Source: Glandiceps talaboti
Lineage: Eukaryota; Hemichordata; Enteropneusta; Spengelidae
Direction: 5' to 3'
Assembly: GCF_964340395.1 (NCBI RefSeq)
Contig: NC_135569.1
Span: 8,116,040 to 8,180,039 of the forward strand
DNA: 64,000 bases
This document shows, one piece after another, positions 53,025 to 63,475 of the stretch (within the stretch, counting starts at the first letter, position 1; every line of letters begins with the position of its first letter). Under the pieces are notes generated by a model that searched no databases, was not told the origin of the DNA, and worked only from the letters and a program-made list of their open reading frames with translations. Both the position numbers and the translations under genes were made by a program.

Positions 53025-54653
53025 CTAAAAATGGATCCTCATGTGTTGCTTCAGATGGCTGCTGTGCTTAAAATCTTTCCCACACTCTTTACATACAAAT
53101 GGTCTTTCATTTGTGTGTCTTCTCATGTGCTTTTTCAGATCAGATCTTTGATTATATCCTTTACCACACTCCAAGCATACAAATGGTTTTTCATTTTTAT
53201 GGATCATCATGTGTGGCTTCAGATAGCTACTTTGCTTAAACCCTTTCCCACACTCTTTACATACAAATGGTCTTTCATTTGCATGGATCCTCATGTGTTC
53301 CTTCAGACGGCTTTTGTGCTTAAACCCTTTACCACAGTCTTTACAAATAAATGGTTTTTCATTTGTGTGTATCATCATGTGCCTTTCCAGCTGAAGACTT
53401 CGATGAAACCCTTTATCACACTCTTTACATACAAATGGTCTTTTGTTTGTGTGTGTCCCTATGTGTCTTTTCAGATCACTGCTTCGATTAAATCCTTCAC
53501 CACATTCTGTACATATGAACGATCTTTCATTTTTATGGATCTGTGTGTGTTGCTTTAGACAACTATTTTGCTTAAACCCTTTCCCACACTCTTTACATAC
53601 ATATGGTCTTTCATTTGTATGGATCTCCACGTGTTGCTTTAAATGACACATTTGCTTAAACCCTTTCCCACAATCTTTACATACAAATGGTCTTTCAGTT
53701 GAGTGCATCCTCATGTGTGTTTTCATATCAGAAGATCGAGTAAACTTTTTATCACATTCTTTACATACAAATGGCCCTTTAGTGGCATGGATCCTCTTGT
53801 GTACACTAAGACGTTTACTGTTATCAAATCCTGCATTACATTCTTTACATACAAATGGTCTGTCATTAGAAATACACTCTTTGGTTGTTTCAGTACTTTT
53901 ACAATTGTATTTCTGGGCATCATATCCATGGTCATCTGCTTCATTTACATCACAAGAAAAACGTACTTGCTGTATCCCCATAGGAAAAGGATTTCCTCCC
54001 CCCTCAATAAAGATTTCGTGAACGCCATTAGACATGCCATATTCTGAGTTTCCCACTGTAGTTAGTTGTTTAGTTTCTCTGTTATCATCAGGGTCTTCCA
54101 CTGTAATTAGTTGTTTAGTTTCCTTGTTATCATCTGAGTTTTCCACTGTGGTTAGTTGTTTAGTTTCCTTGTCAAAATCTTGACAAGCTAATGTCACAGT
54201 TTGGACAGGATAATGAAGTCCATCATTTTGACAGTCTTCACTAGTTACTTTCCAATAATTATGTTCGGTGTCAATGTCATGGCCATCTGTTATCACAGAA
54301 TCTTCTATTTTTATTTGCATATCCTCTTTCACTGTGTCATTGGAAGAGATGTTTTCTGTATCAAAATGTGATTTAGTTTCAACCTTGACTTGATCAGAAT
54401 GATGAAATACAATTGTTGAATCATATTTGATGTTTATGCTTGATTCTTCATCATAATGATCCTGATCAGTCTCAACTTCCTGCTTCACCACCACAACCTT
54501 CTCTCTGTCTTGTCTCTGTTCTTTATCATTCGCTAGGATTTGTTCATCAGAACGATAAAGCAATTCTACCATATCACCTTTAATAAAATTTTCTTGATAG
54601 CTGTAAAGTTGGTTGTTGTCAGAATCTTCTTGCTTGACTATAATCTTCTCCAT
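53025..54653 (-). CDS. C2H2 zinc-finger protein with ten fingers and acidic N-terminal half
   Basis: One uninterrupted 542-residue reading frame. Residues about 1-262 are acidic and low in structure, with SUMO-type motifs (VKQE twice, VKVE, IKIE) and a 15-residue motif (KETKQLTTVENSDDN and variants) three times in a row. Residues about 265-542 are ten C2H2 fingers at the usual 28-residue spacing, joined by TNERP/KNEKP linkers rather than TGEKP. All ten keep C-x2-C and H-x3-H, and fingers run to the last residue. The protein should be a nuclear sequence-specific DNA-binding regulator; its targets cannot be read from the sequence. No KRAB, SCAN, BTB or ZAD domain is seen. A likely splice acceptor (TGATTCTTAG) lies 15 bases before the ATG, so a 5' noncoding exon is expected further right, perhaps beyond the LTR element. 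It probably belongs to a lineage-expanded zinc-finger family; no single vertebrate ortholog is claimed. Confidence 0.93.
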   Translation of the reverse strand: MEKIIVKQEDSDNNQLYSYQENFIKGDMVELLYRSDEQILANDKEQRQDREKVVVVKQEVETDQDHYDEESSINIKYDSTIVFHHSDQVKVETKSHFDTENISSNDTVKEDMQIKIEDSVITDGHDIDTEHNYWKVTSEDCQNDGLHYPVQTVTLACQDFDKETKQLTTVENSDDNKETKQLITVEDPDDNRETKQLTTVGNSEYGMSNGVHEIFIEGGGNPFPMGIQQVRFSCDVNEADDHGYDAQKYNCKSTETTKECISNDRPFVCKECNAGFDNSKRLSVHKRIHATKGPFVCKECDKKFTRSSDMKTHMRMHSTERPFVCKDCGKGFKQMCHLKQHVEIHTNERPYVCKECGKGFKQNSCLKQHTQIHKNERSFICTECGEGFNRSSDLKRHIGTHTNKRPFVCKECDKGFHRSLQLERHMMIHTNEKPFICKDCGKGFKHKSRLKEHMRIHANERPFVCKECGKGFKQSSYLKPHMMIHKNEKPFVCLECGKGYNQRSDLKKHMRRHTNERPFVCKECGKDFKHSSHLKQHMRIHF

Positions 54654-54890: not shown

Positions 54891-55761
54891 TTGTAATTTA
54901 CTGTCTATGGGATAGTACTCTACTGCAAAAGTTCTGGAAAATCTGATAGCACTGTCCAGAGAGTTGCCGTGGTCTTGCTATCTCAAGCAATAGATAGCTA
55001 GATCAAGATTGTAAAACCACAAAAAGGCTAATGTAAAATTAGTTAAAAGCAACTCTGATTACACATCATGTGTATGGACTCAAATTAACTGTAACAAATG
55101 TAGGGTTAGGTTTGATTTTGAGATATTTTTTTTAAGTTTTTTATCATGTCAGGGTTTGCAATCAAAACTAATGCTTACTGTTGCTAGGAGTCAGCTATGT
55201 ATTTGGTCGATATGATCTGACCATGGAAGTCATCCCACTTATACTCCATTACATTTCAGTCAGAACTATCATTGCTTCGGACTAGTGTAGGAGCATGTTC
55301 ATTAGACAAAACACACAGACATTACCAACATTTTGTCCACAATGAACAGTTGTTGTAGTTTTTCATGGGCGAATCTGGAGGACGATTCTTCCTATTGTCA
55401 AACATTAAATGACCTTAGTGTGGCATGCAAAAAAACTGTAATACAAACTTGGTAACTAGTTATTTAAGTATAGAGGACTGCTAGTTTGTACCCAAATTGA
55501 GGCAAATTATCAATTCAAAAGTTCAAATAGATTTTGTGTGATTTCTAGCCCGAAGAAAACCATCTGGAAACCCTCTCAAAACATGAGCTTGTATACCAAA
55601 TTTTCAAAAATTAAATTTGATCTCTGATTTTATGGAGCGCATTTCAGCGTATATAAAGATTTTCAATACTTGTTATAAAATCTGTGTCTGGTCAGTCGAA
55701 CTCTAAATGACAACGGAATTCACACCTCAGAAACTATTAATCTACATCATAATATTGATAT

Positions 55762-56038
55762 TGTTGTAATCAGTGCCGAGGTTATGTTGTCTTACCTGAA
55801 CTGACTAACGTCAGGCTTGACAACTCTGTCTCTGCGATGTGGCTGTGTAGATGCAGGCTTTAGTATACGATTTGGTATGACTTGCATCCACACTTTCTAT
55901 AATCCGTCCTACGGGATTTTCCAGGGTGATACGTTTATATACCAGTCAGTCCTCCATCGTTGATGGCGTCCTGATGGTTTGTTCCATTATTGCTATAGTA
56001 CGGTTTCCAGAGGGGCACTGGAAACCGTTCATACAACA
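55762..56038 (-). repeat. 3' LTR of the retroelement
   Basis: 277 bp, identical by eye to the copy at 61769-62045. On the minus strand it contains TATATAAA near 55934-55941, a probable TATA box, and has TGTTGT/ACAACA ends. The purine-rich tract lies immediately internal to it. Confidence 0.95.
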
Positions 56039-56791
56039 CTCCCCCCAACTTCATTTAAATAGGGCTGGACCCTGAGGGGATCTTGTGGGAGCGAAATAGC
56101 CTAAGAATATCCACCAGGGGCTGTTACTAGGGGAGATGGAAGAGCTACTAGTCTATAAACATAGTGCCTGAAACAATGTCCCATTACCTTGTACAAGGTA
56201 CCAGCGGTTATACTGAGCTAGCTATGTTAAAACAGCTATCCAATTATTTACCTCACCTTTCATGGGGTACAAATAATTACAACTAACTAGTCATCAATTT
56301 ATGGTATAATGACTAACTACCTTGATTTCTTTATCAAGGTATTAATAATGAACATAATACCTTAACTAGGGATTTTAACTGAATGTTTTGGGTCCCCTGG
56401 CTTGATTAGTGCCATCCCTAGCTATTAACTAAAAACATGTTGGGTTAGTATGCGGCCATTGGTTATCTGTTCCACCTAAGAAGATCTCAGGGCCAATGAC
56501 TGTGTACTAACACAGTAATCAGATTTTTGGATATGTATTATGCACCCTTACCCCCGCAGTCCGTCGATATACACTTATTACCTCCAAGAAGGCAAGTGTC
56601 ATGACACACCACAAGTGTAAGTCACATAATGAATCATTTATCATGCATTTTTACCCCCACAGTATGTCAATGTATAACTTTCTTCCTCCAAGAAGGCGCC
56701 AAGTGTCATGACACACCACAGGTGTAAGTTACATAATAAACCTAATTTCCCTTCTTCCCCCTTACCAAACAAAATGGGGGGGACCTATAAT

Positions 56792-57355
56792 TTACAGGAA
56801 GCCATAAAGGGTACGGGTGTTCCTCACCGTGATAGGGAGTAGTTCATGGGGAGTACTGCCCCGAATTGTGGCTATTAAAAACCCAACACTTCCTATATAC
56901 TGGGGAGAGTTTGGTTTAGGACAATTGGGAGGGGGAAAATAGGGTGAGTCTGTCTTCCAGATGAGGCGATCTTCAGGTACTTGTGATATTGTGAATACCT
57001 GAAGGGGCGTGGCATGCCTTACGCTGGCTGTACACCCAAAATAAGTATTTGGAAAGTGGGTCAGCCAGAGTTGAATTTGTGGTGCATCCCCAGAGAAGCA
57101 ATGGAAATGTATGAACTGTTCCCTGGGACAGTACTTACGTACCAGTTGTAATACCTCCTCACCAGGTTTATGACCATAAGAATCTCCATCACCTCCTCGA
57201 ATATGCAGCACTAGGGGCTTTGAGACAGACTGTTCTTGAAGCAGCTGTAGGATTTCTTCTAGAAGTTCCTTCTGTTTTGGCCAAGCAGATTCAGGTGTTG
57301 TGTAATCTAGACCTACTTCACCCACAGCGTCGATATTGCTGGACTCCATCAACAT
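56792..57355 (-). CDS. TatD-family metal-dependent nuclease part of the LTR element
   Basis: A 187-residue frame with the TatD signatures in order: AVGEVGLDY (metal-ligand Glu 13), LVLHIRG (His 51), IHFHCFSG (His 85) and WKTDSPYF (Asp 136). It ends in a P-x-N-x-PQYIG region and N-T-R-x-LYGFL, as in TATDN proteins. The family are Mg-dependent 3'-5' exonucleases and AP endonucleases. The segment lies inside the two LTRs, immediately before the 3' LTR, in the place normally held by pol. It is therefore cargo or an adapted component of the element, not a host gene. Confidence 0.85.
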   Translation of the reverse strand: MLMESSNIDAVGEVGLDYTTPESAWPKQKELLEEILQLLQEQSVSKPLVLHIRGGDGDSYGHKPGEEVLQLVRKYCPREQFIHFHCFSGDAPQIQLWLTHFPNTYFGCTASVRHATPLQVFTISQVPEDRLIWKTDSPYFPPPNCPKPNSPQYIGSVGFLIATIRGSTPHELLPITVRNTRTLYGFL

Positions 57356-57376
57356 ATAGAACGTCTTGAACTGCTT

Positions 57377-58039
57377 TCAAGGTCCTTCTTTCGTTGGGGA
57401 GATCACAGTCCGAGGTCTTTTTCGACTGTGACTCACCTTTTTCTTGCCTTGGTCACCCGGCTGTCTTACTATCTCTGGGGGAGGGGAGGTCAAAGTCTTA
57501 GAAGAACTACCTTGACTTGTTTGCTCACCTTTCAACGGTATTTTCGACAGCCGAATAGTACGGGATTCATATACCTGCCTTACTTTCTCCTGGGGATGAG
57601 AAATCAAAGCCTGAGCATAGCCCCTTCTTTGACTCACTTGTCCCCCTTTCAAAGGTAATTTAGGTTGCAAGGCAGTACCCGACACAGATTTCTTCTTTGC
57701 CATCTTAGGGGTAGGGGTCATCAAAGCCTGAGCATAGCTCCGACCTTGACTTACCTGCCCAACCGTCAATGGTAAATCAGTCTGTGACGATGTACTGCAA
57801 CTGGGTGAGATACGCAGTGGAGGTTGTACCCTCTGCAAAGGTACCGGTGGCACAGCCGGTGTTTGGGATGTGTTACCATCCGTTGCACGATGACTGGTTC
57901 CACCCCTGTGTTGGTCCTTTCCTCTCATTGTTTTCTCTCCCAATTTAGCATCTAGACTTGCAGGGATTGCTGTTCCTGTCCTTGGACATCGTACATAGTC
58001 TTTCTTGGTTGTAGTAAGACTACTGCATTCCCCGCTCAC
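57377..58039 (-). CDS. Basic, proline-rich repeat region of the LTR element
   Basis: A 220-residue frame between the protease-like and TatD-like parts. A motif of the type LPLKGGQVSQRRGYAQALIS recurs about four times at ~40-residue spacing, and the end is strongly basic (KKKVSHSRKRPRTV). I recognise no enzyme here. It could be a linker or nucleic-acid-binding tail. Confidence 0.5.
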   Translation of the reverse strand: MSGECSSLTTTKKDYVRCPRTGTAIPASLDAKLGEKTMRGKDQHRGGTSHRATDGNTSQTPAVPPVPLQRVQPPLRISPSCSTSSQTDLPLTVGQVSQGRSYAQALMTPTPKMAKKKSVSGTALQPKLPLKGGQVSQRRGYAQALISHPQEKVRQVYESRTIRLSKIPLKGEQTSQGSSSKTLTSPPPEIVRQPGDQGKKKVSHSRKRPRTVISPTKEGP

Positions 58040-58175
58040 AGGGTTCGTGTTTTCACAGAACTCTCCCCTCCTTTACCCTTGGACTTTGGTTTCCCTTGCG
58101 AAAGAGATTCCGCAGTCATTGAGGTAGAGGAAGTGACAGTATTCTGTTTCAACTTCTCTCGTTTTTGAGAACCTG

Positions 58176-58463
58176 TCAATCCGGAACTCGTCCCTTTCTG
58201 CCCCTGCGAAGTGGTAGATGGACCAGAACCAAACTGGGAAGTTGTTTGTACACCTCCATTCCCAACCTGATACAGACCGAGCCCACTAAGAAACCTTTCA
58301 TTTTCATTTCACGTCCAGCTGTTGGCATTGTAATCGGTTTAATAGAGGGGGGTTTTGCATCCAATTGGTCATAGAGTTTGTCTGAAATTATAGTTACCTC
58401 TGAGGCGGTATCAATCACTGCCTGTGTTCCATGTCCTTCAATCGTAAGTGACACACTCAGCAT
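58176..58463 (-). CDS. Retropepsin-like aspartic protease part of the LTR element
   Basis: The segment contains AVIDTASEVTIISDKLYDQL, the active-site region of a retropepsin (D-T/S-A/G-x-hydrophobic), preceded by a hydrophobic strand VSLTIEGHGTQ. It lies directly after gag in the reading direction, as in gypsy elements. The family cuts the gag precursor. Confidence 0.7.
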   Translation of the reverse strand: MLSVSLTIEGHGTQAVIDTASEVTIISDKLYDQLDAKPPSIKPITMPTAGREMKMKGFLVGSVCIRLGMEVYKQLPSLVLVHLPLRRGRKGRVPD

Positions 58464-58630
58464 GGAACCAGACTAGTTGGCAGATGACTACTTCCTCATC
58501 AGCATCTATGTACTTAGGGTTCAGTGGGGATTTGACTGATAATTCAGTCAAATGGGGTTGGCCATTTTCAATCGGGGTCAGCCCAGGGCCTACTGAGTTG
58601 ATCCGTGTTTGTTTAGCGAGTCCCCAAAGG

Positions 58631-60484
58631 TCACTCCCGTCCCATGGGGTCTGGGAGAGAGATTGGGCAATCCCTTTTGAAATGGCCTACTTTACCACAC
58701 AGAAAACACTTGTCGGATTTAGGGGATGGTGAACGACTGTATGTCCGTTTTTGAGTGGTGGCCATCATATAACTCTTCATTTCCTTCGCAAAGCTATCAA
58801 ATTTGGAGCTTAAGTTAGCAACATGTAACTCTAGACGTGACATTCTGTCTTCCATTATTTTGTATCCGGAGTCAACTTGAGTGGATGGACGTTTATTTTG
58901 ACTAAAGTTAGGTGGGGGTGGCCCAGTACTAGTGGTAGTAGCTTGCACTGCAACTATGTTATAGTCAGATTCGTCTTCTGGCCTTGTACACCTAACTTGA
59001 GTACGGGCGGGTTTAGTGTCACCAGAGATGGCGGCTGCATTAAATTGGAACCATCTAATTTTATCCATAGCCTCCTCAATATTTGCTGGATGTTGATTAA
59101 TTGCATATTGACTAGCCTTTTTCTCAATGCACCCATGACAAAATCTGATAGCGGCTTGTCTGTCTGTATTTGCCTCCGACCCATAACTGAAGGCGAAAGT
59201 GGCTAGGCCCTGTATTCTATCTGCCCAGTTTTGTAAGCTTTCATCAAGCCGCTGACTACTTTGCCAAAAGTTCATTTGTGCCGTTTCGGGGAGTTCTTGG
59301 TGACCGAATCGTTGTGCAAATCTAGCTATTAGATCGAAATAGTCTATGTCACCATACCTTTCGATTACATTAGCATAATATGTACTGGCTGGTCCCGTGA
59401 GACACCAACACAACTGATTCCTTCTTTCCTTCGAGTTCCACCCTACTTCGTCAGCATATCTTGAGAATTTAATGTGAAATATTCTCCATTCTTCCTCACC
59501 ACTATACATAAGGGTTTTGGGGATATTGTGAGATAAAGAGTAACGCTCACGTCTAGTGTAGGGGGGTGATCTATAGGACTTTTCACGTTCCGGGCTTTGG
59601 TCATACTCGGGTGATAGGGGGGGTTGTGAGGAGAAATGTTCAGGACCCTGGGGTCTATAATAATTTGGTTTACTATAGGTAAGTTCCAGGCTATCCGGTC
59701 TATCCCTAACTTTTCTCACTTCCCGTCTATCCATACCCCCGGCATCCACATTGTCTCGGGTATTACTCAGTTCTATCCTCACTGGTGTTTTTTCCCTATA
59801 TGGTTTACTCATAGGTTTAGGTTGCTGAGGTTGGTATCTGGGGCCATATTTTGGGTTAACCCCCTCCGGTGTATGAAGTAGGCCAAAATCAGCTGCCAAT
59901 TTTCTTTTGGTGCGTGGGGTTTCAATGGAGGGTTCCTCTTTTGCCGCTATTCCATGAGGGACATTTAGACTATGATTATATTGTTCATATTTTGTATCTA
60001 TATATTCCTCAGTGTCAGATCTATGCTTTGTTGACGCTTGTTTGACATATCCACCCTCTATTAAATGGGAAACCCTTTTTATTACCTCATCTGTTGTTCG
60101 TTGGGGTGGAGGTTTTTTGGGAATTGCACCCATTACCTCTGGTTTGGGCTGTCCATACTCTAAGTATTCTCTGTCTGGTAAGTTATCATAGGGGGTTTGG
60201 GTTGCTTGAGTAACTGAAGTTTCCACAGGGTTTGTTGACATCTCTTCCCCATAGCTCAGTCCGATAGCAATATCACTACCATCCTCACTGGGGAGAGGTG
60301 TAAAGCTTACCCTTTCTATAAATTCAGGAAATGACTTCAGATATGGTATTTCCGCTAGGTTCTCTTCTGTTATATTCCCATACTTTTCCCTAAGTTTCAA
60401 TATGGCTTGTGCGGGGTTGGGACCAATCCCAGGAATTTGTTGTAATTCTTCCTCTGTACAATTGTTGATATTAATTGTAGCCAT
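58631..60484 (-). CDS. Gag of the LTR element: N-terminal helix-hairpin-helix, gypsy-type capsid, zinc knuckle
   Basis: A 617-residue frame. Residues 5-48 (INNCTEEELQQIPGIGPNPA and on) match the ComEA/competence-type helix-hairpin-helix pattern, a DNA-binding fold not usual in gag. Residues 60-320 are disordered and rich in P, R and E. Residues about 321-480 have the W-x3-F and tyrosine/tryptophan spacing of gypsy-type capsid. Residues 540-572 could form a short coiled coil. Residues 593-606 are a CX2CX4HX4C zinc knuckle (CFLCGKVGHFKRDC). Its role by family is particle assembly and RNA packaging. The first ATG follows the 5' leader, and no other start is better placed. Confidence 0.88.
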   Translation of the reverse strand: MATININNCTEEELQQIPGIGPNPAQAILKLREKYGNITEENLAEIPYLKSFPEFIERVSFTPLPSEDGSDIAIGLSYGEEMSTNPVETSVTQATQTPYDNLPDREYLEYGQPKPEVMGAIPKKPPPQRTTDEVIKRVSHLIEGGYVKQASTKHRSDTEEYIDTKYEQYNHSLNVPHGIAAKEEPSIETPRTKRKLAADFGLLHTPEGVNPKYGPRYQPQQPKPMSKPYREKTPVRIELSNTRDNVDAGGMDRREVRKVRDRPDSLELTYSKPNYYRPQGPEHFSSQPPLSPEYDQSPEREKSYRSPPYTRRERYSLSHNIPKTLMYSGEEEWRIFHIKFSRYADEVGWNSKERRNQLCWCLTGPASTYYANVIERYGDIDYFDLIARFAQRFGHQELPETAQMNFWQSSQRLDESLQNWADRIQGLATFAFSYGSEANTDRQAAIRFCHGCIEKKASQYAINQHPANIEEAMDKIRWFQFNAAAISGDTKPARTQVRCTRPEDESDYNIVAVQATTTSTGPPPPNFSQNKRPSTQVDSGYKIMEDRMSRLELHVANLSSKFDSFAKEMKSYMMATTQKRTYSRSPSPKSDKCFLCGKVGHFKRDCPISLPDPMGRE

Positions 60485-61017
60485 ATCTCACCTTAGAACT
60501 AATAACTTACCCTGCTTGTGCTATGGTAAGTTAACTGCCTTGTACAACACAACAATAGTTAACAGTAAAACTATCTTCTAGAGTTGAGACGTGTTTAAAC
60601 GTGTACGCGACAATATACAATTAGTATATGGAAATATGCAAGGGTATTTTCTAAGTGGGTACTAATATTCAACAGAGGTACAATAAATACTCTTTCTATC
60701 TCCTACTGTACTCGCAAAATAGAAATTGATATTTCCCAGTGACTTGTGGAATTATAACTTGCACAACTAATACGGAACAGTGTATACAATAACTATTGTG
60801 TCCCCTGTCCCGTACCGAAGATACAACAAATAATCTGGGGTTTTTAATCCAAAGTCAGCAACACCTTGCAGACCTTCAGTCTAGGTTCCTAGCCTTTTTA
60901 TAAGTTATTTGATATTTACTATTTTTCTATTTTGTTTCCACTAGCTGGTGTTCACACTCTAAGTCCTTAACACAAATTTTATCTAACCTAGCTATGCCTA
61001 CACACACGTATTTTACT

Positions 61018-61310
61018 CAAAGGCGTGGTGCGCCCTCGCGTAGGGTGTGCTTTATTTTGTAAAGCTGGCCCACGACTTGGCTGCACCACACAAAAAAAAT
61101 TACTAAACCTACTTTATAAATTGAAGGCGTGGTGTGCTCTCGCGTAGGGGTCGGCCTATTATTTAAGCTCTACCCCACGACTTGGCAACACCACACAAAA
61201 AAAATTGTAGTCCCTAACTAATTCGAACGCGTGGTGCACTTTGTAGGGGCCTGCCCAATTGGTAAGCTCTACCCCACAAATCCGTGTCACCACACAAAAA
61301 AAATTACTAT
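61018..61310 (-). repeat. Three leader repeats in the LTR element
   Basis: Units of about 100 bp at 61018, 61127 and 61228. Each has GCGTGGTG, CGTAGGG and CCCCACGA blocks and ends in CACCACAC plus an A-tract. GTGGTG and CACCAC pair within each unit, so three similar hairpins are expected in the RNA leader between the 5' LTR and gag. Confidence 0.75.
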
Positions 61311-61768
61311 GAACTCTAATTTACAAAACGGTTTCAACGAAAATAAAACTGTCCTATACACCAACTATTTGTAGAATTTTTTAGGACCAAAAAACGAAGA
61401 ACAGATAAGAACTACACAGCGTTAAACTGACTTTGCCCCAATTTTCAGTTTCGTACCCACTAACAGGTGGAACGGACGCTATGCATAAATTGACGACCAC
61501 ATGGAAACTGAAATTGACAAGACACTTTGAAAATCACAAAATACGAGGTCCACTAACAGAAATATACAACACCAAACAATTGTAAATGAAAACTGGTAAT
61601 TCTCTGTGCACTAGTGTGGAGCCACCCGGAGTTTGACTTTTTGTTTGGCCCCTCCTTCAAATGTCAATCAAGATGACGTTCCCACCCCAGTACAAAGAAG
61701 TTTACCACAACTAAAAGTTTGCAAAATTCTGAGTGACCGCTCAGATACGGGAGGCCGACTACGCCAAT

Positions 61769-62045
61769 TGTTGTAATCAGTGCCGAGGTTATGTTGTCTT
61801 ACCTGAACTGACTAACGTCAGGCTTGACAACTCTGTCTCTGCGATGTGGCTGTGTAGATGCAGGCTTTAGTATACGATTTGGTATGACTTGCATCCACAC
61901 TTTCTATAATCCGTCCTACGGGATTTTCCAGGGTGATACGTTTATATACCAGTCAGTCCTCCATCGTTGATGGCGTCCTGATGGTTTGTTCCATTATTGC
62001 TATAGTACGGTTTCCAGAGGGGCACTGGAAACCGTTCATACAACA
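61769..62045 (-). repeat. 5' LTR of the retroelement
   Basis: 277 bp with the same sequence, ends and TATA motif (near 61941) as the other LTR. The primer-binding-like TGGCGTAGTCGG follows it in the reading direction at about 61766. Confidence 0.95.
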
Positions 62046-62353
62046 ATATGGAACTGCTCTAGTTCAGCGGCGTTGTTCAAAAAGAAATAGAAACACAGTC
62101 TTTTAAATCTACAGTTCAAGTTTCTCGACAATCAATGCCACTTAGTTGTCTTATTAACATTCATCTTCCAAGATCTGTACACTTTCCTATGCTTTCCTTC
62201 AAAATCGGAATTCATTTGCCATTGCTTCCCAGTGGCGTAGTGCATGATTGATAGATCGTAATCCCCCTAGGCCCCTCTAGGCTCTAGCTCTCGACGCCAC
62301 CACTTCACCAGGTTATTGTGAAAATGGGAGGTAAATGGTTGCACTGTACGTAC

Positions 62354-63089: not shown

Positions 63090-63475
63090 TTTTAAAGTGG
63101 CCATATGGATGAGGATTTGGTATTTATTTGAAAGTAGCAGTATGAATGATTTGGTTTTTATTTGGATTATCTTGGCTTCCTACTTGAAATATCAATGTGA
63201 AATAACATATGCCAAGTCTGTGTTTGTACTAATTCAACAAATTGCAATAAGATTAATAAATGTGTCAAATCTTTGTTATTGTACATACAATAATAAACTT
63301 TGTACATATTCTTCAGCTTTTTGCAATTTATTGAGTTACAAACACAGACTTGGCATATGTTGTTTCACATCGATTTTTCAAGTAGGAAGCCAAGATAAAA
63401 TTGTTTTACAAAAATGTATAAATCAAAAGTCCAAAATACATACTGAATCCTCATTCATATGGCAAATTTTAAATA
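63090..63475. repeat. Foldback element
   Basis: Arms about 63090-63245 and 63320-63475: CCATATGGATGAGGATTTGG, ATCTTGGCTTCCTACTTGAA and ATATGCCAAGTCTGTGTTTG each have an inverted partner. The left arm has a short internal duplication (TATGAATGATTTGG). The flanks 62480-63090 and 63476-64000 show nothing firm. Confidence 0.88.

Follow-up and report, generated by a model that had tools for sequence, protein, structure and literature searches.

Enzymes in the envelope (env) position of long terminal repeat (LTR) retrotransposons are, as far as we know, uncommon. Two better-known groups serve as references, the Ty3/Gypsy (Metaviridae) elements with a spliced env gene and the internally deleted non-autonomous LTR elements termed LARD/TRIM-like. 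The closest described enzyme-bearing elements are Vesta and Juno of bdelloid rotifers, LTR retrotransposons in which gag and pol are joined by a third open reading frame (ORF3) encoding a DEDDy exonuclease or a GDSL esterase, with catalytic residues reported intact (PMC5408684). Here, we analyze a 64,000-nucleotide stretch of the hemichordate Glandiceps talaboti (contig NC_135569.1, positions 8,116,040 to 8,180,039; hereafter the window), which contains a 6,284-bp LTR element on the minus strand (62045 to 55762) with a gag gene and a segment of the TatD nuclease family. We consider it likely that this element is a derivative of a Ty3/Gypsy family with gag, pol and a TatD-containing ORF3, that the TatD domain was captured from a TATDN2-like host gene, or has its nearest ancestor in common with it, and was kept as a nuclease, and that the window copy moves in trans.

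The TatD-bearing elements are of the same kind as the bdelloid elements with an enzyme ORF3; what differs is the TatD fold and the measured constraint. Where the rotifer nuclease is of the DEDDy type, the ORF3s of two relatives of the window element (loci L009 and L014) show TatD only, with neither DEDDy nor GDSL domains, and whereas no significant intragenomic departure from neutrality is reported for the bdelloid ORF3 (PMC5408684), the ratio of non-synonymous to synonymous change (dN/dS) of TatD is 0.11–0.33 in four families. Like Ty3/Gypsy elements with env, the elements of this clade have the order protease, reverse transcriptase (RT), RNase H and integrase, a 4-bp target-site duplication (TSD), a tRNA primer site and an ORF3 behind a splice-acceptor-like site; unlike them, their ORF3 is a C2H2/TatD protein, and Pfam found no env family match in the ORF3s of L009 and L014. 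As in LARD/TRIM-like elements, the window copy and its siblings keep LTRs, primer-binding site and polypurine tract, lack pol and have amplified as a group, but the window gag is open and gag is constrained between copies. A further comparison is host TATDN2, which two reports describe as an RNase that resolves R-loops (PMC12709183, PMC10707325). It is the nearest host TatD in our tree and has the FCDP motif and metal ligands in common with the element TatDs, which differ in being intron-less, mobile and placed in ORF3 behind a C2H2 domain, with a predicted activity. A search of titles and the beginnings of abstracts, with Repbase, bioRxiv and most subscription journals outside its range, found no report of TatD in LTR elements, and a thin literature search found none of a PHD finger on a Gypsy integrase.

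TatD lies downstream of pol in gag-pol relatives

A profile search for TatD (PF01026) in the window's genome (590 Mb, 47 contigs) gave 37 matches. By our own classing, 31 rows (29 places) are element-type and 6 (3 genes) host-like; 27 of these 29 were fetched, and for short matches the assignment used similarity only. Element TatDs score above the curated cut-off of the profile. Stretches of 10 kb were fetched for 20 places, and the family letters used below (A, A2, B–E, G, H) were assigned in this analysis. The complete copy of family A on contig C19 (loci L029 and L009, read separately) spans 12,284 bp from LTR to LTR, with 5' and 3' LTRs that differ at 1 of 277 positions. Its gag, of the helix-hairpin-helix (HHH) type (in L029), is an open frame of 632 aa, and its pol is one open frame of 1435 aa composed of protease, RVT_1, RNase H, H2C2, rve and a C-terminal PHD finger. 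ORF3 follows pol as a separate frame of 1145 aa (1132 from the ATG) and ends in a TatD domain that covers positions 2–253 of the 253 in the profile. Family B (L014–L016 and L030; contigs C20, C24 and C14) has the same order, with a pol of 1427 aa and a TatD-containing ORF3 of 931 aa, and its LTRs are identical (289/289) in both copies checked. The pol frames of L009 and L014 both follow the Ty3/Gypsy order, and in both families the enzyme frame lies between pol and the 3' LTR.

The window element aligns with L009/L029 at ~90–97% across the LTR, leader, gag, start of the protease, ORF3 remnant, TatD and 3' untranslated region, with two jumps. The original prediction had placed TatD in the slot of pol. 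Alignment to the complete relative, which carries gag-pol and then ORF3, led us to reject this arrangement: pol has been deleted, and TatD is the 3' end of the separate ORF3. The accompanying proposal, that a non-autonomous family had recruited TatD instead of pol, is not supported, as TatD is carried downstream of pol in gag-pol elements.

Parts of the same order, with a PHD finger or integrase followed by C2H2 and TatD, were found in families A2 (L019, with a frame-broken ORF3), C (L013), D (L026, L042) and G (L022). Family E (L020) and L028 have an HHH-Gag followed by remnants of a C2H2-TatD ORF3, with no pol match between them; pol loss with retention of gag and ORF3 may have happened more than once. 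Overall, at least seven families, all from a single Ty3/Gypsy clade, carry a TatD ORF3, and the order of C2H2 and then TatD is shared, a C2H2 domain lying within 2.5 kb upstream at 13 of the 29 element-type places. Copies without TatD had been named as what would undo the prediction; other copies of the family do have it, although related families without it exist, which makes TatD an add-on module.

The window copy is a deletion derivative from an amplified group

The window copy has the hallmarks of an LTR retroelement, with identical TG..CA LTRs, TSD, primer-binding site and polypurine tract. A repeat search of the window returned direct repeats at 55760–56038 and 61767–62045 (279 nt each, 100% identical, spacing 6,007 nt), and the primer-binding site starts 2 bases behind the 5' LTR. 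The corresponding 20-nt tRNA-Ser 3'-end pattern has 13 genomic matches, which ARAGORN called as tRNA-Ser (TGA and AGA) at both of the two places inspected. The predicted parts list (LTRs, gag, a retropepsin-like part, a TatD segment, and no RT or integrase) was borne out by repeats, Pfam and tblastn. Gag begins with an HHH domain (HHH_3, E 7e-9), to our knowledge an unusual start, followed by a PNMA/Retrotrans_gag core and one CCHC zinc knuckle. The retropepsin likewise stood as a match to Asp_protease_2 (E 6.6e-6; ORF at 58176–58463), but it is truncated at a deletion junction (58241/58237). A tblastn search with the family's own sequences found no RT, RNase H, integrase or PHD in the window element. 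With the truncated protease as its only part of pol, the window copy is a derivative rather than an autonomous Ty3/Gypsy member.

Relative to L009, deletion 1 removed the rest of the protease, RT, RNase H, integrase, PHD and the start of ORF3, and deletion 2 removed the C2H2 domain of ORF3 together with the TatD N-terminus and its HxH pair. The start of ORF3, its acceptor-like site and the HxH ligands are deleted, and the ORF3 frame is broken. What remains of TatD (56792–57355) matches PF01026 at E 4.3e-30 from profile position 81 to the end of 253, or from position 71 when the whole open frame is used, and matches solved TatD/YcfH chains from about residue 85 onward. As predicted, the Glu, two His and Asp ligands are present, but the N-terminal HxH pair is missing. 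An AlphaFold model of the fragment made without an alignment was uninformative (mean predicted local distance difference test score, pLDDT, 42; predicted template-modeling score, pTM, 0.42), and a search of viral_contigs with the window TatD gave 6 pattern matches and 0 relatives.

Four copies share both deletions, the window and loci L023, L025 and L045 (contigs C2, C1 and C20), and each occupies its own insertion site. The window copy differs from L023 by 10 substitutions in 6,284 nt without gaps, and from L025 by 13 substitutions and gaps of 1, 1 and 11 nt. By protein mapping, the junction of deletion 1 is common to L017, L023, L025, L045 and L046. L017 and L046 have this deletion but retain part of the TatD N-terminus, so the two losses were probably stepwise. 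Searching with the LTR gave 42 matches, with same-strand pairs 5–13 kb apart at the window, C2, C1, C20, C19, C14 and C6, and wider pairs on C10 and C18. An exact 4-bp TSD flanks 8 of the 9 copies with both ends seen (the window, L023, L045, L046, L047, the C19 copy and the family B copies on C20 and C24); in the ninth, L025, 3 of 4 bases match. Because no derivative examined has pol, the natural reading is that the derivatives were amplified in trans. The pol-less L046, on contig C14, has LTRs 84% and an interior ~95% identical to the window copy.

Two smaller observations concern this LTR family. L047 (C6:28808270-28813950) has LTRs of the same family and a CTAC duplication, with no tblastn match to the gag, pol or ORF3 of family A, and is a coding-free derivative. 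The window copy, L045 and L046 lie at three different sites with the same duplication, ATAT, hinting at an AT-rich choice of target.

Element TatDs group beside a TATDN2-like host gene and are constrained in four families

Our TatD tree comprised 17 rows, namely 13 element TatDs, two host genes (L012 and L031) and E. coli TatD and YcfH. The 13 element sequences form one side of a branch with support of 100/99, apart from the two host genes sampled. They join L012 at 98/96, away from L031, E. coli TatD and YcfH, and L031 joins E. coli TatD. We take L012 to be TATDN2-like, in view of its FCDP motif. The element TatD would have been captured from host TATDN2 or share its nearest ancestor, a step that forms part of our joint explanation; kinship with TATDN2 is what the captured host gene envisaged by the original prediction would show. 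The families' TatDs are mostly 38–58% identical (A and A2, 84%). All six metal ligands are kept in L009, L010, L019, L014, L020 and L022; the sequences of L013, L017, L018, L024 and the window do not cover the HxH region.

In the dN/dS comparison that had been proposed as a check, several TatD families proved constrained (pairwise Nei-Gojobori counts). Between A (L009) and A2 (L019) the ratio is 0.18, with changes at 79.8 of 194 synonymous and 65.2 of 643 non-synonymous sites (p 9e-21), and it is 0.20 between A and L035 (p 5e-12) and 0.26 between A2 and L035 (p 3e-7). Similar values were obtained in families E (L020-L024, 0.25, p 1e-12; L020-L037, 0.30, p 7e-5), G (L022-L033, 0.11, p 1e-14) and B (L014-L034, 0.33, p 1.4e-4). 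Within A, L009 gives 0.17 with L011, 0.29 with L010 (p 8e-4), 0.31 with L046 (p 0.003) and 0.46 with L017 (p 0.035). TatD is thus under purifying selection in four families, at 0.11–0.33. Other regions compared between A and A2 gave 0.74 (ORF3 middle), 0.29 (C2H2 domain) and 0.25 (PHD); between distant families, synonymous sites are saturated.

The deleted lineage behaves differently. TatD shows no significant constraint between L009 and the window (0.75; 4 and 10 changes, p 0.75), and in the pol-less pair of the window and L046 gag is constrained (0.32, p 5e-6) while constraint on TatD is not detectable (0.89; 5 and 15 changes, p 0.79). The deleted lineage shows no sign of maintaining TatD while gag is maintained, which is suggestive only, since L046 is possibly recombinant.

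One unusual frame also joins Gag and TatD sequence. At L021:3796-7674 (C12), a single ORF of 1293 aa combines a Gag-type HHH N-terminus, KLAKPTNASH repeats and a C-terminal TatD in which three of six ligands are replaced; the best match to its N-terminus besides itself is 43% identical. A domesticated gene and a decayed fusion are both candidate readings.

ORF3 probably predates its TatD and is probably expressed by splicing

The C2H2 domain upstream of TatD has invariant C, C, H and H in ten sequences, for which Pfam gave nothing above cut-off. A genome search with this domain returned 28 matches, and five without an obvious TatD were fetched. L040, which adjoins an integrase-PHD belonging to the clade, encodes the C2H2 domain in a frame of 403 aa that lacks TatD; L041 and L043 have the domain with no TatD seen in the fetched stretch; L042 contains the start of a TatD; and L044, a relative of L022, is cut short, with no TatD in the 4 kb fetched. 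In a tree of the domain, the three TatD-less rows split from the nine others at 96/95; L044 was placed among the TatD families on the basis of kinship, and long branches lead to L043 and L013. The ORF3 of L040 used as a query matched 47 stretches, many in TatD families, and its own kind (at least 46% identity) comprises 10 loci, all of them more than 49 kb away from any PF01026 match. ORF3 is probably older than its TatD, and the trees require no more than one gain or one loss of TatD.

ORF3s of LTR elements are typically expressed through spliced messages, according to the rotifer study (PMC5408684). The chosen ORF3 ATG lies 42, 56 and 34 nt behind the pol stop in families A, B and H. We searched A, A2 (which is related to A), B, C, D, G and the TatD-less H, but not E. 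With a threshold of 11 pyrimidines in 16, 7 of 7 families have an acceptor-like site (a pyrimidine run and AG) that precedes the ORF3 start by 1–36 nt. The chance of such a site per 60 nt is 0.11–0.28 at 11 pyrimidines, 0.05–0.11 at 12 and 0.04–0.06 at 13. Families A, A2, G and H allow a clean test, their chosen ATG being the earliest of its frame. Going by these acceptor-like sites, ORF3 of the complete form is probably translated from a spliced message in the manner of env. ORF3 has no feature that points to an envelope, but by the hydrophobicity test it may contain a membrane segment: the most hydrophobic stretch lies in the conserved helix of the C2H2 domain in A, B, D and G. It exceeds the usual cut of 1.6 in A, B and D but not in G, and no stretch of the H ORF3 reaches that value.

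We considered and rejected a Pointed/SAM domain for ORF3, as the hit to ETV6 chains (E 3e-4) came from summed repeat domains and the single-domain E was 47–92 in the two chains listed. Separately, L043 (C8:10159107) has a 655-aa ORF in which a long SR-repeat region precedes an ORF3-type C2H2 domain at the end; the 4 kb fetched gave no TatD, gag, integrase or PHD match.

Possible roles of TatD and alternative explanations

In the explanation that we favor, the complete form would be ordered LTR, HHH-Gag, protease-RT-RNase H-integrase-PHD, ORF3 (C2H2, then TatD) and LTR. TatD would have been added to a pre-existing ORF3, or lost once in a sister lineage, and kept as a predicted metal-dependent nuclease. 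Its job would be to process RNA:DNA hybrids or nucleic-acid ends, either in the course of reverse transcription or afterwards, or to clear hybrids from host sensing. Because TATDN2 reportedly degrades the RNA strand of RNA:DNA hybrids, kinship makes this the likeliest class of role, which we put forward tentatively. The window copy would be a young non-autonomous deletion derivative that, with its siblings, supplies RNA, LTRs, the primer site and perhaps Gag and takes pol from complete copies, its TatD fragment being passenger debris. A more specific proposal, which we hold to be somewhat more doubtful, is that the clade carries in the env position a separately spliced, selection-maintained TATDN2-type nuclease acting on RNA:DNA intermediates or on the host response. 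If true, these elements would have a second nuclease beside RNase H and integrase, taken from a host gene for germline genome maintenance. With TatD present in at least seven families, its ligands mostly kept and four families constrained, the benefit that a captured TATDN2-type nuclease brings to a retroelement can now be put to a direct test.

Several observations weigh against this explanation. The C19 copy is the only one found with gag, pol and ORF3 all open, and every family B copy fetched has a defect (gag is missing from L014, ORF3 is interrupted in L015 and pol in L016). Among 13 integrase copies of the clade (at least 57% identical to family A), TatD follows within 8 kb in 6, the C2H2 domain is present but TatD absent in 2, and both are absent in 5; these 13 are among 120 scored out of 459 candidates, and the rest of the 120 are at most 43% identical. 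Constraint on TatD is not significant in family D (0.65, p 0.54, and 0.58, p 0.07) or between L020 and L032 of family E (0.51, p 0.29), and gag of the window against that of the complete copy gives 0.55 (p 0.029). One His is replaced in L011, the last Asp in L018 and three of six ligands in L021. TATDN3 and a full TATDN1 are not in the TatD tree. Acceptor-like sites drop to 5 of 7 families at 12 pyrimidines and 3 of 7 at 13, and the test is partly circular, as B and D have earlier in-frame ATGs and the one after the AG was chosen, and in family C, for want of an identified ORF3 ATG, a nominal position took its place. The possibility that L046 is a recombinant weakens the selection test of its pair with the window. 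Finally, trans-mobilization, splicing and enzyme activity are predictions from sequence.

Among alternatives, the one that fares best gives the TatD ORF3 no part in replication; it would instead act against the host by degrading cDNA in the cytosol, RNA:DNA hybrids or the precursors of small RNAs. An env-like placement behind acceptor-like sites fits an accessory protein, as does the absence of TatD from related families, but a nuclease that degrades cDNA would harm the element too, and we regard this role as possible and about as doubtful as the more specific proposal above. It is improbable that TatD has lost catalysis and persists purely as a binding domain, as the intact ligand sets of six loci stand against the replacements in L011, L018 and L021. 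Slightly less probable still is that TatD was recruited instead of pol by a non-autonomous family that makes use of it. The recent group of the window and three siblings does combine gag and a TatD fragment without pol, and pol-less gag and ORF3 also occur in L020 and L028, with TatD of family E, which includes L020, constrained at 0.25 and 0.30. For the window family, however, the idea is refuted by a complete relative with both pol and TatD; the window copy has lost the ORF3 start, acceptor-like site and HxH, its frame is broken, and the pol-less pair shows constraint on gag with none detectable on TatD. Transduction of host genes by retroelements is known and TATDN2 is the nearest host gene in the tree, but a recent chance pickup of TATDN2 mRNA by one element, with TatD drifting as a passenger, is very unlikely given that divergent families share TatD in one group and in the C2H2-then-TatD order, with saturated synonymous divergence between most of them and dN/dS well under 1 in four.

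Annotation of TatD genes and further features

Most TatD-domain matches in this genome look like parts of mobile elements, a warning for annotators, and invertebrate gene models named TATDN2 may be ORF3. The guess that multi-copy TATDN-like predictions partly reflect such elements fits this genome, with 31 of 37 PF01026 rows element-type. In the giant-squid genome paper, a figure legend names TATDN2 as one of the non-Hox genes within the Hox cluster, next to a pogo transposable-element model (PMC6962438), and this entry merits re-examination. Table 1 lists the features of the window element.

Table 1 Features of the LTR element, in window coordinates.
Feature	Position	Strand	Basis
Target-site duplication ATAT, 5' side	62046..62049	.	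Inspection of outer flanks
5' LTR, 277 bp, TGTTG...CAACA	61769..62045	-	Repeat search and end inspection
Primer-binding site, 13-nt complement of the CCA-bearing 3' end of tRNA-Ser(AGA/TGA)	61754..61766	-	
Non-coding leader, three imperfect copies of a 63-nt repeat, spacing ~100 nt	61020..61305	-	Repeat search
gag ORF, 617 aa, open	58631..60484	-	ORF list and Pfam
5' part of retropepsin, D-T-A motif, cut by deletion 1	58241..58463	-	Pfam and alignment to L009
Deletion 1 junction, ~4.96 kb absent relative to L009	58237..58241	-	Alignment and protein mapping
Frame-broken remnant of ORF3 middle region (linker)	57380..58237	-	
Deletion 2 junction, ~0.93 kb absent relative to L009	57376..57379	-	Alignment
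TatD fragment without HxH	56792..57376	-	Pfam, structure-chain matches, ligand alignment
Polypurine-rich tract, AAGTTGGGGGGAG, abutting 3' LTR	56039..56051	-	End inspection
3' LTR, 277 bp, identical to 5' LTR	55762..56038	-	Repeat search and end inspection
Target-site duplication ATAT, 3' side	55758..55761	.	Inspection of outer flanks

Outside the element by ~1.1 kb lies an inverted repeat (63167–63398) with 62-nt arms that are 95% complementary and 108 nt apart, perhaps a miniature inverted-repeat transposable element. On its other side, the minus strand at 53025–54653 carries a single-exon C2H2 zinc-finger ORF of 542 aa, with 10 fingers by a strict pattern and an 84-bp period.

Elsewhere in the assembly, contig C40 contains COX1 three times, 15,435 bp apart, and is the mitochondrial genome assembled as head-to-tail copies. 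Its COX1, at 53% G+C, has no AGA, AGG or AAA codon, which together with the gene order looks hemichordate-like; that order is ND2, trnN, trnW (called SeC by ARAGORN), trnA, trnY, COX1 and trnS.

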